This document shows positions 13,339 through 17,439 of a DNA stretch of 64,000 bases, piece after piece. Origin of the DNA: Mycolicibacterium sp. MU0050. GTDB taxonomy: Bacteria; Actinomycetota; Actinomycetes; Mycobacteriales; Mycobacteriaceae. The notes beneath the pieces were generated by a model. The model was not told the origin of the DNA. It made no database searches and saw only the letters and a program-made list of their open reading frames with translations. The stretch is from NCBI RefSeq assembly GCF_963378085.1, contig NZ_OY726395.1, forward strand, positions 3,162,001 through 3,226,000. Direction: 5' to 3'. Both the position numbers and the translations under genes were made by a program. The first letter of the stretch is position 1. Each line of letters opens with the position of its first letter.

Positions 13339-14373
<1,035 letters not shown>

Positions 14374-14401: not shown

Positions 14402-14917
14402 TTATTTCGTCGAGCCGATACCGCGGGGCCCGCGAGCCAGCGAAACGACGCCGGACTGCACGATCTCACGGATACCGTACGGCTCCAGCACGCGCAGCAG
14501 CGCGCCGATCTTCTCCTGGGTGCCGGTGGCCTCGATGGTGAGCGACTCCGTGGAAACGTCAACGACCTTGGCGCGGAACAGGTTGACGGCCTCGATCACC
14601 TGACTGCGGGTGCCGGCATCGGCGCGGACCTTGATCAGCGCCAGCTCCCGCGAGACCGAGTTCTCCTCGTCCTGCTCGACGATCTTGATCACGTTGATCA
14701 ACTTGTTGAGCTGCTTGGTGATCTGTTCGAGCGGGAAGTCCTCGACCGACACCACGATCGTCATCCGCGACATGTTCTTCTGTTCGGTGGGGCCCACCGC
14801 CAGCGACTTGATGTTGAAGCCGCGCCGGGAGAACAGCGCCGACACCCGCGCGAGCACGCCGGGCTTGTCCTCGACGAGCACCGACAGCGTGTGCGTGGTG
14901 ACTCCAGATGTGCCCAT
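14402..14917 (-). CDS. ilvN: Acetolactate synthase small (regulatory) subunit
   Basis: A 171-residue regulatory subunit. The N-terminal ACT domain begins TLSVLVEDKPGVLARVSALF, the site of valine feedback in the family; the C-terminal half (ALIKVRADAGTRSQVIEAVNLF) is the usual second ACT-like domain. It activates the IlvB catalytic subunit. The ATG at 14917 overlaps the ilvB stop (TGATG), so the two subunits are translationally coupled. Confidence 0.97.
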   Translation of the reverse strand: MGTSGVTTHTLSVLVEDKPGVLARVSALFSRRGFNIKSLAVGPTEQKNMSRMTIVVSVEDFPLEQITKQLNKLINVIKIVEQDEENSVSRELALIKVRADAGTRSQVIEAVNLFRAKVVDVSTESLTIEATGTQEKIGALLRVLEPYGIREIVQSGVVSLARGPRGIGSTK

Positions 14918-16755
14918 CAGACCTGATCCTCGTTGTCGAACAGCGGACGGATGTCGCGTGCGGCCATGATCTCGTCGTTGCCGGTGCCGGCGGCCACCAT
15001 CGGCCACACCTGCGCGTCGGCGCCGACGATGAAGTCGATGACCACGGGCCGGTCGTTGATGGCGCGGGCCTGGTTGATGACGTCCTCGACGTCTTCGGCA
15101 CGCTCACAACGCAATCCGACGCAGCCGAGCGCCTCGGCCAGCTTGACGAAGTCCGGGATGCGCTGGCTGTGCGTGGCCAGGTCGGTCTGGCTGTACCGCT
15201 CCCCGTAGAACAGCGTCTGCCACTGCCGCACCATGCCCAGGTTGCCGTTGTTGATCAGCGCGACCTTGATGGGCGCACCCTCGATGGCGCAGGTGGCCAG
15301 CTCCTGGTTGGTCATCTGGAAGCAGCCGTCGCCGTCGATGGCCCACACCTCGGCCTCCGGGCGCGCCATCTTGGCGCCCATGGCCGCCGGCACCGCGAAG
15401 CCCATGGTGCCCAGACCACCGGAATTCAGCCAGGTGCGCGGCTTTTCGTAGGAGATGAACTGCGCGGCCCACATCTGGTGCTGGCCGACACCGGCGACAT
15501 AGATCGCATCCGAACCCGCGATCTCGCCGAGCTTCTCGATGACGAACTCCGGGCTCAGGCTGCCGTCGCTCTGCGGTCCGTAGCTCAGCGGGTAGGTGGA
15601 CCGGACGCCGGCCAGGTACTCCCACCACTGATCCATCTTGATGTTGCCGGGCACGTCGTCGCGGCGCAGCGCCGCGATCAGGTCGGCGATGACGGCCTTG
15701 GCGTCGCCCACGATCGGGACGTCGGCGTGCCGGTTCTTGCCGATCTCGGCCGGGTCGATGTCGGCGTGAATCACCTTGGCCTCGGGCGCAAACGAGTCCA
15801 GCTGCCCGGTGACCCGGTCGTCGAACCGGGTGCCGAGCGCGATCAGCAGGTCGCTGCGCTGCAGGGCGGCCACGGCAGCGACCGTGCCGTGCATCCCGGG
15901 CATCCCGAGGTGCTGCGGATGGCTGTCCGGGAACGCTCCGCGGGCCATCAACGTGGTCACCACCGGGATCCCGGTCAGCTCCGCCAGCTCCAGCAACTCG
16001 GCGCTGGCCTCGCCGCGGATGATGCCGCCGCCGACGTACAGCACCGGCTTGCGGGCCGCGGCGATCAGCTTGGCCGCCTCCCGGATCTGGCGGTTGTGCG
16101 GCTTGGTGTTCGGCTTGTAGCCGGGCAGGTCGGTCTCCGGCGGCCAGCTGAAGGTGCACTGGCCCTGCAGCACGTCCTTGGGGATGTCGACCAGGACCGC
16201 GCCGGGGCGGCCCGAGGAGGCGATGTGGAACGCCTCGGCGATCACCCGCGGGATGTCGTCACCGGTGCGCACCAGGAAGTTGTGCTTGGTGATGGGCATC
16301 GTGATGCCGGAGATGTCGGCCTCTTGGAAGGCGTCGGTGCCGATCAGCCCGCGGCCCACCTGACCGGTGATGGCCACCACCGGGATGGAGTCCATCTGCG
16401 CGTCGGCCAGCGGCGTGACCAGGTTGGTCGCCCCGGGCCCGGAGGTGGCCATCATGACGCCGACCTTGCCGGTGGCGTGCGCGTAGCCGCTGGCCGCGTG
16501 GCCGGCGCCCTGCTCGTGGCGCACCAACACGTGGCGCAGCTTCCGGGAATCGAACAGTGGGTCGTAGACCGGCAGCACCGCACCGCCCGGGATGCCGAAA
16601 ATGGTGTCGACGCCCATCTCCTCGAGCGAGCGCACCACCGACTGGGCGCCGGTCATCTGCTGCGGCGGGACCCGTTGGCCCGAACCGGAGGGAGTGCCGT
16701 TGGCGGGCTTGGGTGCGGTCACCGTTGCGGGCGGTCGCGTGGTGGGTGCGCTCAC
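14917..16755 (-). CDS. ilvB: Acetolactate synthase large (catalytic) subunit
   Basis: A 612-residue thiamine-diphosphate enzyme that condenses two pyruvates, or pyruvate and 2-oxobutyrate, the first common step of branched-chain amino acid synthesis. The catalytic glutamate is in [20 protein letters not shown]. The central domain contains the FAD-binding region, and the C-terminal [15 protein letters not shown] with [12 protein letters not shown] is the thiamine-diphosphate/magnesium motif. The start is the GTG at 16755 ([13 protein letters not shown]), with AAGGA seven bases upstream; the frame stays open to 16833, but that extension covers leader RNA next to the attenuator. The first 50 residues are a disordered mycobacterial extension. 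Expression is probably controlled by the attenuator 76 bases upstream. Confidence 0.97.
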
Positions 16756-16831
16756 GATGTGTCCTTGCTCGTGTTCTGGGCTGGTGTTCTGGAGTTCGGT
16801 GTCGATGCGGGGCGTTGGCCCCTTGGCAAAC

Positions 16832-16867
16832 AAAAAACCCCCGGTCAGCTACTGCTGCACGAGGGTT
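16832..16867 (-). terminator. Attenuator terminator of the ilvBNC leader
   Basis: On the minus strand, AACCCTCG (16867-16860) pairs with CGGGGGTT (16843-16836), with one G-U, around an inner CAGC/GCTG stem, and is followed at once by a T-run. It lies 49 bases after the leader peptide stop and 76 bases before the ilvB start. Confidence 0.85.
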
Positions 16868-16934
16868 GCGCGTTGATGCTCGTAGGCTCGGCCTTGGGAG
16901 TGGCCTCGCTAGACCTTACGCGGCACCAACGCGC
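16868..16934 (-). promoter_or_regulatory. Competing leader pairing of the ilv attenuator
   Basis: GCGCGTTG inside the leader peptide gene (16934-16927) is the exact complement of CAACGCGC (16875-16868), which touches the terminator stem. A further ACGAG (16883-16879) can pair with CTCGT (16863-16859) in the terminator's left arm. These are candidates for the pause and antiterminator stems; which one forms has not been tested. Confidence 0.55.
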
Positions 16935-16969
16935 CGGCTTACTACTACGAGAATCTCGCGGGTGGTCAT
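16916..16969 (-). CDS. ilvBNC leader peptide
   Basis: A 17-codon open frame encoding MTTREILVVVSRRVGAA, with Ile-Leu-Val-Val-Val in a row at codons 6-10 (16954-16940). It lies just upstream of an intrinsic terminator and the ilvB gene. Ribosome stalling at these codons when isoleucine, leucine or valine is short would favour read-through, the classic attenuation logic known for ilv operons, including those of corynebacteria. There is no ribosome binding site; a promoter box ends eight bases before the ATG, so the peptide is probably translated from a leaderless RNA end. Confidence 0.85.
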   Translation of the reverse strand: MTTREILVVVSRRVGAA

Positions 16970-16977
16970 AGCCCACG

Positions 16978-17007
16978 ACGGTAGCCCTCGTCCGGGGTTC
17001 GCGTCAA
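16978..17007 (-). promoter_or_regulatory. Promoter of the ilvBNC leader and operon
   Basis: TTGACG (17007-17002) and TACCGT (16983-16978) are separated by 18 bases. The start point falls within about three bases of the leader peptide ATG at 16969. It is the best -35/-10 pair in the window. Confidence 0.7.
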
Positions 17008-17058
17008 ATTGCTTGACCTGCGCGGACGGCAATCGCGGCGGGCGGGCAAGATGGCGGC

Positions 17059-17439
17059 ATGGCTACACCCGATGCTCCCGTGGTGATCCGGATGTCGCCG
17101 ATGGCCCACGTGGCCGTCGCGTTCGTGGCGTTCGCCATGCTGCTGCCCGTTCTCGCGCTGCCGTGGCTTACGCCGATGCTGATCATTCCGGTGCTCGCAT
17201 CGGTGGCCATCGTGCGCCTGCGCACGGTGGCAAAGCGGGACACCGTGACCGCGCGTTCGCTGCTGAAGAGCACCACGGTGGGCTGGGACGAGATCAAGGG
17301 CCTGAAGTTCGTCAAGGGGTCCTGGGCGCGCGCGGAGCTGCGCAACGGCCGGGAGCTCTCCCTTCCGGCGGTGTCGTTCTCCACGTTGCCGCTGCTCGCC
17401 GCGGCCAGCGGCGGACGGGTGCCCAACCCGTACCAGTGA
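17059..17439 (+). CDS. PH-domain (DUF2581-like) small membrane protein, Cfp6 type
   Basis: A 126-residue protein. Two hydrophobic segments (AVAFVAFAMLLPVLALPWL, then MLIIPVLASVAIVRL) form a membrane hairpin near the N-terminus. A short bacterial PH-like domain follows (ARSLLKSTTVGWDEIKGLKF, ELRNGRELSLPAVSFSTLP). It corresponds in position and character to Rv3004, known as Cfp6 for its appearance in culture filtrate. The function is unknown; such proteins probably sit in the cytoplasmic membrane. It is divergent from the ilv operon, and the DoxX-family gene ends three bases beyond its stop on the opposite strand. Confidence 0.8.
   Translation: MATPDAPVVIRMSPMAHVAVAFVAFAMLLPVLALPWLTPMLIIPVLASVAIVRLRTVAKRDTVTARSLLKSTTVGWDEIKGLKFVKGSWARAELRNGRELSLPAVSFSTLPLLAAASGGRVPNPYQ

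Follow-up and report, generated by a model that had tools for sequence, protein, structure and literature searches.

The ilvB-ilvN-ilvC operon on the minus strand of the window (the whole stretch of 64,000 nucleotides analyzed here) is preceded by a leader in which a helix, P1, directly adjoins the intrinsic terminator without sharing a nucleotide with it, and a touching, non-overlapping helix of this kind is found in nearly all leaders folded in this study. Like an antiterminator, P1 depends on ribosome stalling in our folding model, yet it appears to leave the terminator arm free. We regard the region as very probably an attenuator by which ilvBNC responds to branched-chain amino acids (BCAA), its peptide gene being leaderless or nearly so; this arrangement is already known in relatives, and the locus adds only a member to it. 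The first-pass annotation had proposed attenuation of ilvBNC, which is supported in this form, but P1 would not be the ordinary antiterminator implied there because the terminator 5' arm stays unoccupied.

The minus-strand leader comprises 214 nt from its ATG to ilvB and is flanked by the divergent gene at 17059 and by ilvB at 16755; the locus contains the following features:

17059, plus strand: divergent gene, the upstream neighbor of the leader
17002 to 17007, minus strand: -35 element TTGACG, by direct reading of the sequence
16978 to 16983, minus strand: -10 element TACCGT of the TANNNT type, at an 18-nt spacer from the -35, by direct reading
16970 to 16977, minus strand: 8-nt stretch from the -10 to the start codon, judged by the genus leaders and the spacing background of the own genome
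16916 to 16969, minus strand: leader peptide gene of 17 codons, MTTREILVVVSRRVGAA (ATG 16969-16967, TAA 16918-16916), from the sequence
16954 to 16940, minus strand: Ile-Leu-Val-Val-Val codon run of the leader peptide gene, from the sequence and the BCAA run of genus and family leaders
16923 to 16934, minus strand: 5' arm of helix P1 within the leader peptide gene, from the fold, covariation and shuffles
16868 to 16879, minus strand: 3' arm of helix P1, immediately adjoining the terminator, from the fold
16836 to 16867, minus strand: intrinsic terminator hairpin of 8 + 4 pairs with an internal loop, from the fold
16832 to 16837, minus strand: U-tract of six, by direct reading
16762 to 16766, minus strand: AAGGA, the likely Shine-Dalgarno site of ilvB, by direct reading
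14917 to 16755, minus strand: ilvB, acetolactate synthase large subunit, GTG start (NCBIfam NF005860, above cut-off)
14402 to 14926, minus strand: ilvN, acetolactate synthase small subunit, start approximate (NCBIfam NF008864, above cut-off)
13339 to 14364, minus strand: ilvC, ketol-acid reductoisomerase, start approximate (NCBIfam NF004017, above cut-off)

On the minus strand, promoter, leader peptide gene, P1, terminator, U-tract, AAGGA, and the GTG of ilvB follow each other in this order, with the U-tract ending at +138 and ilvB starting at +215 (counted from the leader ATG). The three genes behind the leader are each identified above an NCBIfam cut-off, and the upstream open reading frame (uORF) carries codons for Ile, Leu, and Val, the amino acids of its own operon's pathway. 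Reading and fold both place an intrinsic terminator with a U-tract between the uORF and ilvB, and the leader folds better than its dinucleotide shuffles (z = -3.72; 2 of 200 shuffles were equally good). The parts that the first-pass annotation had described are all present on the minus strand: the TTGACG and TACCGT elements 18 bases apart, the ATG, the 17-codon peptide with its Ile-Leu-Val-Val-Val run, and the terminator with its T-run (hairpin at 16867-16836, U-tract at 16837-16832). Its term "strong promoter" is not backed by a scan for E. coli-type promoters, which found none here; the -10 follows the TANNNT form of mycobacteria. The same scan listed no terminator at the leader because it disallows the internal loop, and an Rfam 15 cmscan of the window returned no family at gathering score in the leader, with two tRNAs as the only matches. 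Inverted repeats of at least 8 were not found by a repeat search of the promoter region. Back to back with the minus-strand -35 TTGAC lies a plus-strand TTGAC that faces the gene at 17059 (17003-17017, GTCAAATTGCTTGAC), for which no good plus-strand -10 was seen by eye at standard spacing. The plus strand also holds a 687-aa open frame (14908-16971) that runs antisense to both ilvB and the gene for the leader peptide and is most likely a mere by-product of G+C-rich coding sequence.

By DNA search, the leader was recovered from 113 of the 118 genus genomes, and 111 of these 113 loci could be parsed by a script that required a TTG -35 (TTGAC preferred), a spacer of 16 to 19 nt, a TANNNT -10, and a start 4 to 15 nt beyond it; the two unparsed loci, both clipped by contig ends, lacked a promoter match (L161) or a U-tract (L164). 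The -35 reads TTGAC followed by C, G, or T in all 111 parsed leaders, the spacer is 18 nt in 108, and the -10 is TACCGT in 102. From the -10 to the start, the distance is 8 nt in 102 of the 111, with 7 nt in 5, 6 nt in 2, and 9 and 14 nt in 1 each. Across the parsed leaders the uORF has 15 to 33 codons, and the end of the U-tract lies 107 to 156 nt from the start codon. The exact pattern TTGAC-N19-TACCGT-N8-ATG is present in 295 of 396 genomes of the genus (matches counted genome-wide, irrespective of their position relative to ilvB) and its mirror image in 2 (read from the table). The 33-codon uORF of L189 apparently arose by insertion ahead of the LVV run, and its promoter spacing, P1, and terminator are the same as in other leaders. 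A complete leader is also kept in two small genomes of 3.27 Mb (L186 in G114 and L168 in G074).

Among other genera of the family, loci came from 84 of 86 genomes (not included: G429, G478, and a further match in G418). A permissive scan, which allowed 3 to 12 nt and chose the upstream start where two were possible (GTG then ATG), found a BCAA uORF 6 to 8 nt from a TANNNT in 79 of these 84 loci, though a few of the 79 look spurious (e.g., L297 and L301); L253, L282, L298, L299, and L300 gave no uORF match. The commonest form has GTG at 7 nt (53 of 79), so the start is mostly GTG at 7 nt in these genera compared to mostly ATG at 8 nt in the genus itself, and several other-genus leaders have GTG with ATG immediately behind it. 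In a scan of 78 named loci, 49 gave no leader and ten of Streptomyces type carry TTGACA-N18-GAGGGT-N7-ATG or a close form, differing from the window leader by a -10 of GAGGGT or similar and a 7-nt gap. Thirteen of the 78 had been labeled as Shine-Dalgarno-led; the upstream DNA of 12 was inspected, and the label was withdrawn for the ten Streptomyces-type loci because their GGAGG-like match falls in the -10 region.

A background for the short gap between promoter and start codon was drawn from 464 kb of the own genome (the window plus 20 stretches of 20 kb) with candidate starts of 762 long frames. TANNNT-to-start gaps numbered 21 at 6 nt, 11 at 7 nt, 4 at 8 nt, and 6 at 9 nt, with a mean of 2.0 (range 0 to 5) at the other gaps from 2 to 30 nt and at most 2 in controls deep within frames. 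Leaderless starts in this genome peak at 6 to 7 nt from TANNNT; a gap of 8 nt borders on this peak, though taken alone its count does not leave the scatter. The leaderless case rests on the fixed gap in the genus and on mapped starts in relatives. Transcription of ilvL in C. glutamicum is reported to start one nucleotide from the start codon (PMC11857589, citing Morbach 2000), and S. lividans IlvL is described as transcribed leaderless (PMC8079986). The lack of any 5' UTR that had been suggested finds support in the fixed 8-nt genus gap and the relatives' starts and, in part only, in the own-genome background; what can be said is a 5' UTR of 0 to about 2 nt. Most likely, then, the ilv leader peptide is indeed leaderless here, or nearly so. 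This had also been presented as new, which these published starts in C. glutamicum and S. lividans contradict, as does the attenuation reported for M. tuberculosis ilvB1.

Helix P1 contains the 8-base complementary pair that had been placed between the peptide gene and the base of the terminator. The complement is exact (16934-16927 with 16875-16868) and forms the outer part of P1, which extends to 12 consecutive pairs including one G-U (16934-16923 with 16879-16868), but it shares no nucleotide with the terminator. The suggested covariation check of 16868-16875 against 16927-16934 was run on the whole of P1 (pairs 1 to 12) in 168 distinct leaders, 104 from the genus and 64 from other genera, leaving out L301 (no P1 anchor), L302 (no CCCTCG), and duplicates. 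Pairing exceeded the maximum of 300 shuffles at the 7th (0.905 versus 0.827), 9th (0.762 versus 0.565), and 10th pairs (0.649 versus 0.583), but not at the 6th, 8th, 11th, and 12th, while the 5th is on a par with the shuffles and pairs 1 to 4, being almost invariant, are uninformative. Paired double changes occur from the 5th to the 12th pair; at the 7th, the 164 aligned leaders include 68 with C-G, 62 with U-A, and 33 with U-G. These shuffles ignore relatedness and part of the covariation may equal one genus-level difference, so that it is support, not proof, for selection on P1 as RNA. RNAalifold retained only five P1 pairs over 164 leaders because the alignment splits the outer ones. Six of the 104 genus leaders translate the P1 arm in a different frame (CALVVA compared to RVGA elsewhere) with its nucleotides unchanged, which indicates that the RNA pairing is kept and not the peptide. 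The leaders L123, L134, and L154-L157 have two LVV runs each (MDNGMLVVAxCALVVA), the second stemming from the frame-shifted P1 arm. Among the 100 genus leaders with LV, the first pair of P1 follows the first base of the Leu codon by 17 nt in 90; among the 64 other-genus leaders, it does so by 14 nt in 57. This puts the start of P1 just beyond the edge of a ribosome with Leu in the A site (assuming a leading edge of 13 nt).

At its base, P1 ends where the first pair of the terminator begins. With the ribosome at Leu, the gap between the two helices in the minimum-energy fold is 0 nt in 163 of 168 leaders and 1 nt in the remaining 5. When the upstream part was shuffled, a gap of 0 arose in 42.6% of 1,680 folds, and a gap of 0 together with a helix of at least 6 pairs in 4.8%, compared to 161 of the 168 observed leaders. 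The six pairs of the terminator's CCCUCG form in 163 to 164 of 164 aligned leaders, and in L135 and L181, whose outer P1 pairs are missing through an apparent deletion, the terminator is still directly adjoining. Twenty-three named leaders were also folded (from 29 loci with a leader, omitting five genus members and the doubtful L079); they come from what we take to be Mycobacteriales, Pseudonocardiales, Streptomyces and relatives, Allonocardiopsis, and Intrasporangiaceae, and show a gap of 0 in 20 and of 1 in 3. P1 touches the terminator in the ten Streptomyces-type loci as it does here, with a gap of 0 in nine and of 1 in one. L301 has a gap of 0, and L302, which encodes a Corynebacterium-like peptide, a gap of 17 and not 0; no U-tract was recognized for L280, L294, L297, and L303 in the family folding. 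L237 and L249 lack the A between P1 and terminator, and one or two C seem to be contested by their two helices; the terminator probability at Leu is down to 0.17 here. Titles and abstract openings of the open-access papers retrieved yielded no antiterminator that touches its terminator without overlapping it.

The E. coli thr, leu, trp, ilvG, his, and ilvB attenuators, whose leader peptides are led by ribosome binding sites, share a peptide with regulatory codons, a stall-dependent helix, and a terminator with the leader studied here, but their stall-dependent helix occupies the terminator 5' arm while P1 leaves it free. We used these six as controls when folding the RNA before the terminator 3' arm exists, with the ribosome at each codon, and recording the share of the 5' arm that is paired upstream. 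At most regulatory codons, the hidden share was 1.00 for thr, 0.85 for leu, 0.71 for trp, 0.79 for ilvG, 0.79 for his, and 0.69 for ilvB. For the final codons in the run, it dropped to 0.61 for thr, 0.57 and 0.39 for ilvG, 0.67 for his, and 0.52 for ilvB, and with the ribosome at the stop codon it was at most 0.03 in five of the six (his, 0.78); in the drop at the final codons and the high stop value of his, the controls fall short of the ideal. At Leu and the next codon, the leaders hide on average 0.09 and 0.03 in the genus and 0.02 and 0.05 in other genera, and none of the 168 hides at least 0.5 of the arm at either codon; with the ribosome further along, at regulatory codon three or four, 24 of the 168 hide half or more. 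The mean hidden share is 0.27 (genus) and 0.36 (other genera) with the ribosome at the stop codon, and 0.54 and 0.45 without a ribosome. For the window leader, the hidden share is 0.27 with the ribosome at Leu and 0.00 with it at the first Val. Judged by the hidden share at each ribosome position, the terminator arm is thus freest at those codons at which a classical antiterminator would be expected to cover it. A stall-dependent helix on the terminator 5' arm, as defines the E. coli trp type, was not found at Leu or the codon after it, either for the window leader or across the 168 leaders.

Equilibrium folding was dropped as proof that an antiterminator is lacking, since proven E. coli attenuators look non-switching too (terminator probability 0.92 to 0.98 for thr, leu, and trp, with dips to about 0.62 to 0.74 for ilvG, his, and ilvB). 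In this low-power test, the terminator probability of the 104 genus leaders averages 0.94 at the LVV codons and is below 0.5 in none of them; without a ribosome, it is below 0.5 in 24 of 104.

The M. tuberculosis ilvB1NC leader resembles the present one in its BCAA uORF and intrinsic terminator before ilvB1 of the same operon. It is reported to yield large amounts of a short transcript, some 120 nt long, and to carry ribosome footprints on the uORF, and the operon is induced by an IlvB1 inhibitor, an induction that is abolished when LVVI is changed to AAAA; disruption of the terminator eases the vulnerability studied (PMC13236596, Eckartt et al. 2026). Different from our reading, the authors describe two mutually exclusive structures; the accessible portion of the paper neither terms the uORF leaderless nor discusses overlap, and it places the end of the U-tract at +126 and the gene start at +168 (PMC13236596), compared to +138 and +215 here, where counting starts at the leader ATG. 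C. glutamicum ilvBNC shares a start adjacent to the transcription start site, a terminator, and a short boundary between helices, and its leader peptide has three Val as here but differs otherwise; three boundary nucleotides are said to be common to its antiterminator and terminator, whereas here there are none (PMC11857589; PMC10272879 on the ilvB-II motif). The reportedly leaderless Streptomyces IlvL, MRTRILVLGKRVG, is a similar LVxGxRVG peptide (PMC8079986). For S. coelicolor, changes of ilvB leader codons were reportedly without effect (cited in PMC1262725), which would count against reading the leader as a codon-dependent attenuator. A 2005 study predicted leaders and terminators before Mycobacterium ilvB, the mode of regulation being called unclear, and its figure legends name only terminators for ilvB but both terminator and antiterminator for trp and leuS (PMC1262725). 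In M. abscessus, a uORF before ilvB is listed among the ribosome-protected ones (PMC4974804).

Judging by the spacing and the relatives' mapped starts, transcription would begin no more than about 2 nt from the leader ATG, with the ribosome loading on a bare 5' end. With charged Ile, Leu, and Val tRNAs in ample supply, it would reach the stop codon and cover the P1 5' arm, the terminator would form, and transcription would stop; under shortage, it would halt on the Leu/Val codons a short way before P1, which would leave P1 to form and RNA polymerase to read through. In our folds, P1 of the window leader forms in full with the ribosome at Leu or the first Val but not at the stop codon, and the codon dependence in M. 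tuberculosis would make the stalled state at Leu or the first Val the ON state if both leaders work alike. Since P1 takes no pairing partners from the terminator, we infer from the geometry that it may hinder the terminator by its bulk: the basal pairs of the terminator, next to the U-tract, could close only if P1, a stable helix that sits at the terminator base without any linker, were pulled into the RNA exit channel. We propose this steric step tentatively and give it somewhat less than an even chance. Speaking against it, a ribosome held at regulatory codon three or four would, with the 13-nt edge assumed, open 2 to 5 basal pairs of P1 and end the abutment.

A classical attenuator after the model of E. 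coli, or with a three-nucleotide boundary like C. glutamicum, would instead have P1 extended at its base into the AACCC of the terminator and so exclude the terminator by base pairing. At least 3 contiguous pairs can indeed be added to P1 in 64 of 104 genus leaders (with bulges of up to 2 nt), eight of them with a perfect extension of 5 pairs, and both the published M. tuberculosis model and the 24 leaders that hide at least half of the arm at the third or fourth regulatory codon agree with this reading. Yet only a single pair can be added in the window's own leader, and before the terminator 3' arm exists none of the 168 leaders covers half of the 5' arm with the ribosome at Leu or one codon further, compared to 0.69 to 1.00 over most regulatory codons in six of six E. 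coli controls, so that we find this reading unlikely, though it deserves serious consideration; a weaker base-pair competition is possible in those species where P1 can be extended into AACCC. We consider it improbable that P1 aids termination, with the touching hairpins acting as a stronger terminator and a stall at a late Val weakening the P1 base to allow read-through. The coexistence of both helices in the minimum-energy fold, the mention of double-adjacent hairpins as terminators (PMC8355165), and the opening of the P1 base by the later stalls would fit this idea, but P1 is most intact at the Leu/first Val stall, the expected ON state, and lost with the ribosome at the stop codon, the expected OFF state. 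M. tuberculosis reporters with the ilvB1 terminator reportedly terminate as well, their inclusion of P1 being unstated in the available text.

It is very improbable that transcription begins further upstream and that ribosomes loading on a 5' UTR reach the ATG: the E. coli-type scan saw no sigma-70-type promoter and the own-genome count of 8-nt gaps does not exceed scatter, as this alternative would have it, but the spacing is fixed in 102 of 111 genus leaders and is 6 to 8 nt in all 79 family-scan matches, and starts without a leader or with a single nucleotide are reported for ilvL of S. lividans and C. glutamicum. Scarcely credible is a chance arrangement in which the peptide is untranslated and the terminator merely insulates the operon, given that codons, spacing, and helix are conserved in genus and family and that ribosomes have been reported on the uORFs before ilvB1 of M. 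tuberculosis (as footprints) and ilvB of M. abscessus (as protection).

Returning to steric hindrance by P1, we see it as possible, if open to considerable doubt, that many actinobacterial ilvB leaders are of a different build, with an abutting, non-overlapping helix and antitermination by bulk. If so, antitermination would be set by the length of a linker and not by competing base pairs, and the terminators without antiterminator that the 2005 study listed for ilvB would be explained. If the touching helix is the switch, the textbook rule for finding antiterminators would miss a class, and the question of where the antiterminator of actinobacterial ilvB leaders lies would have a simple, testable answer.
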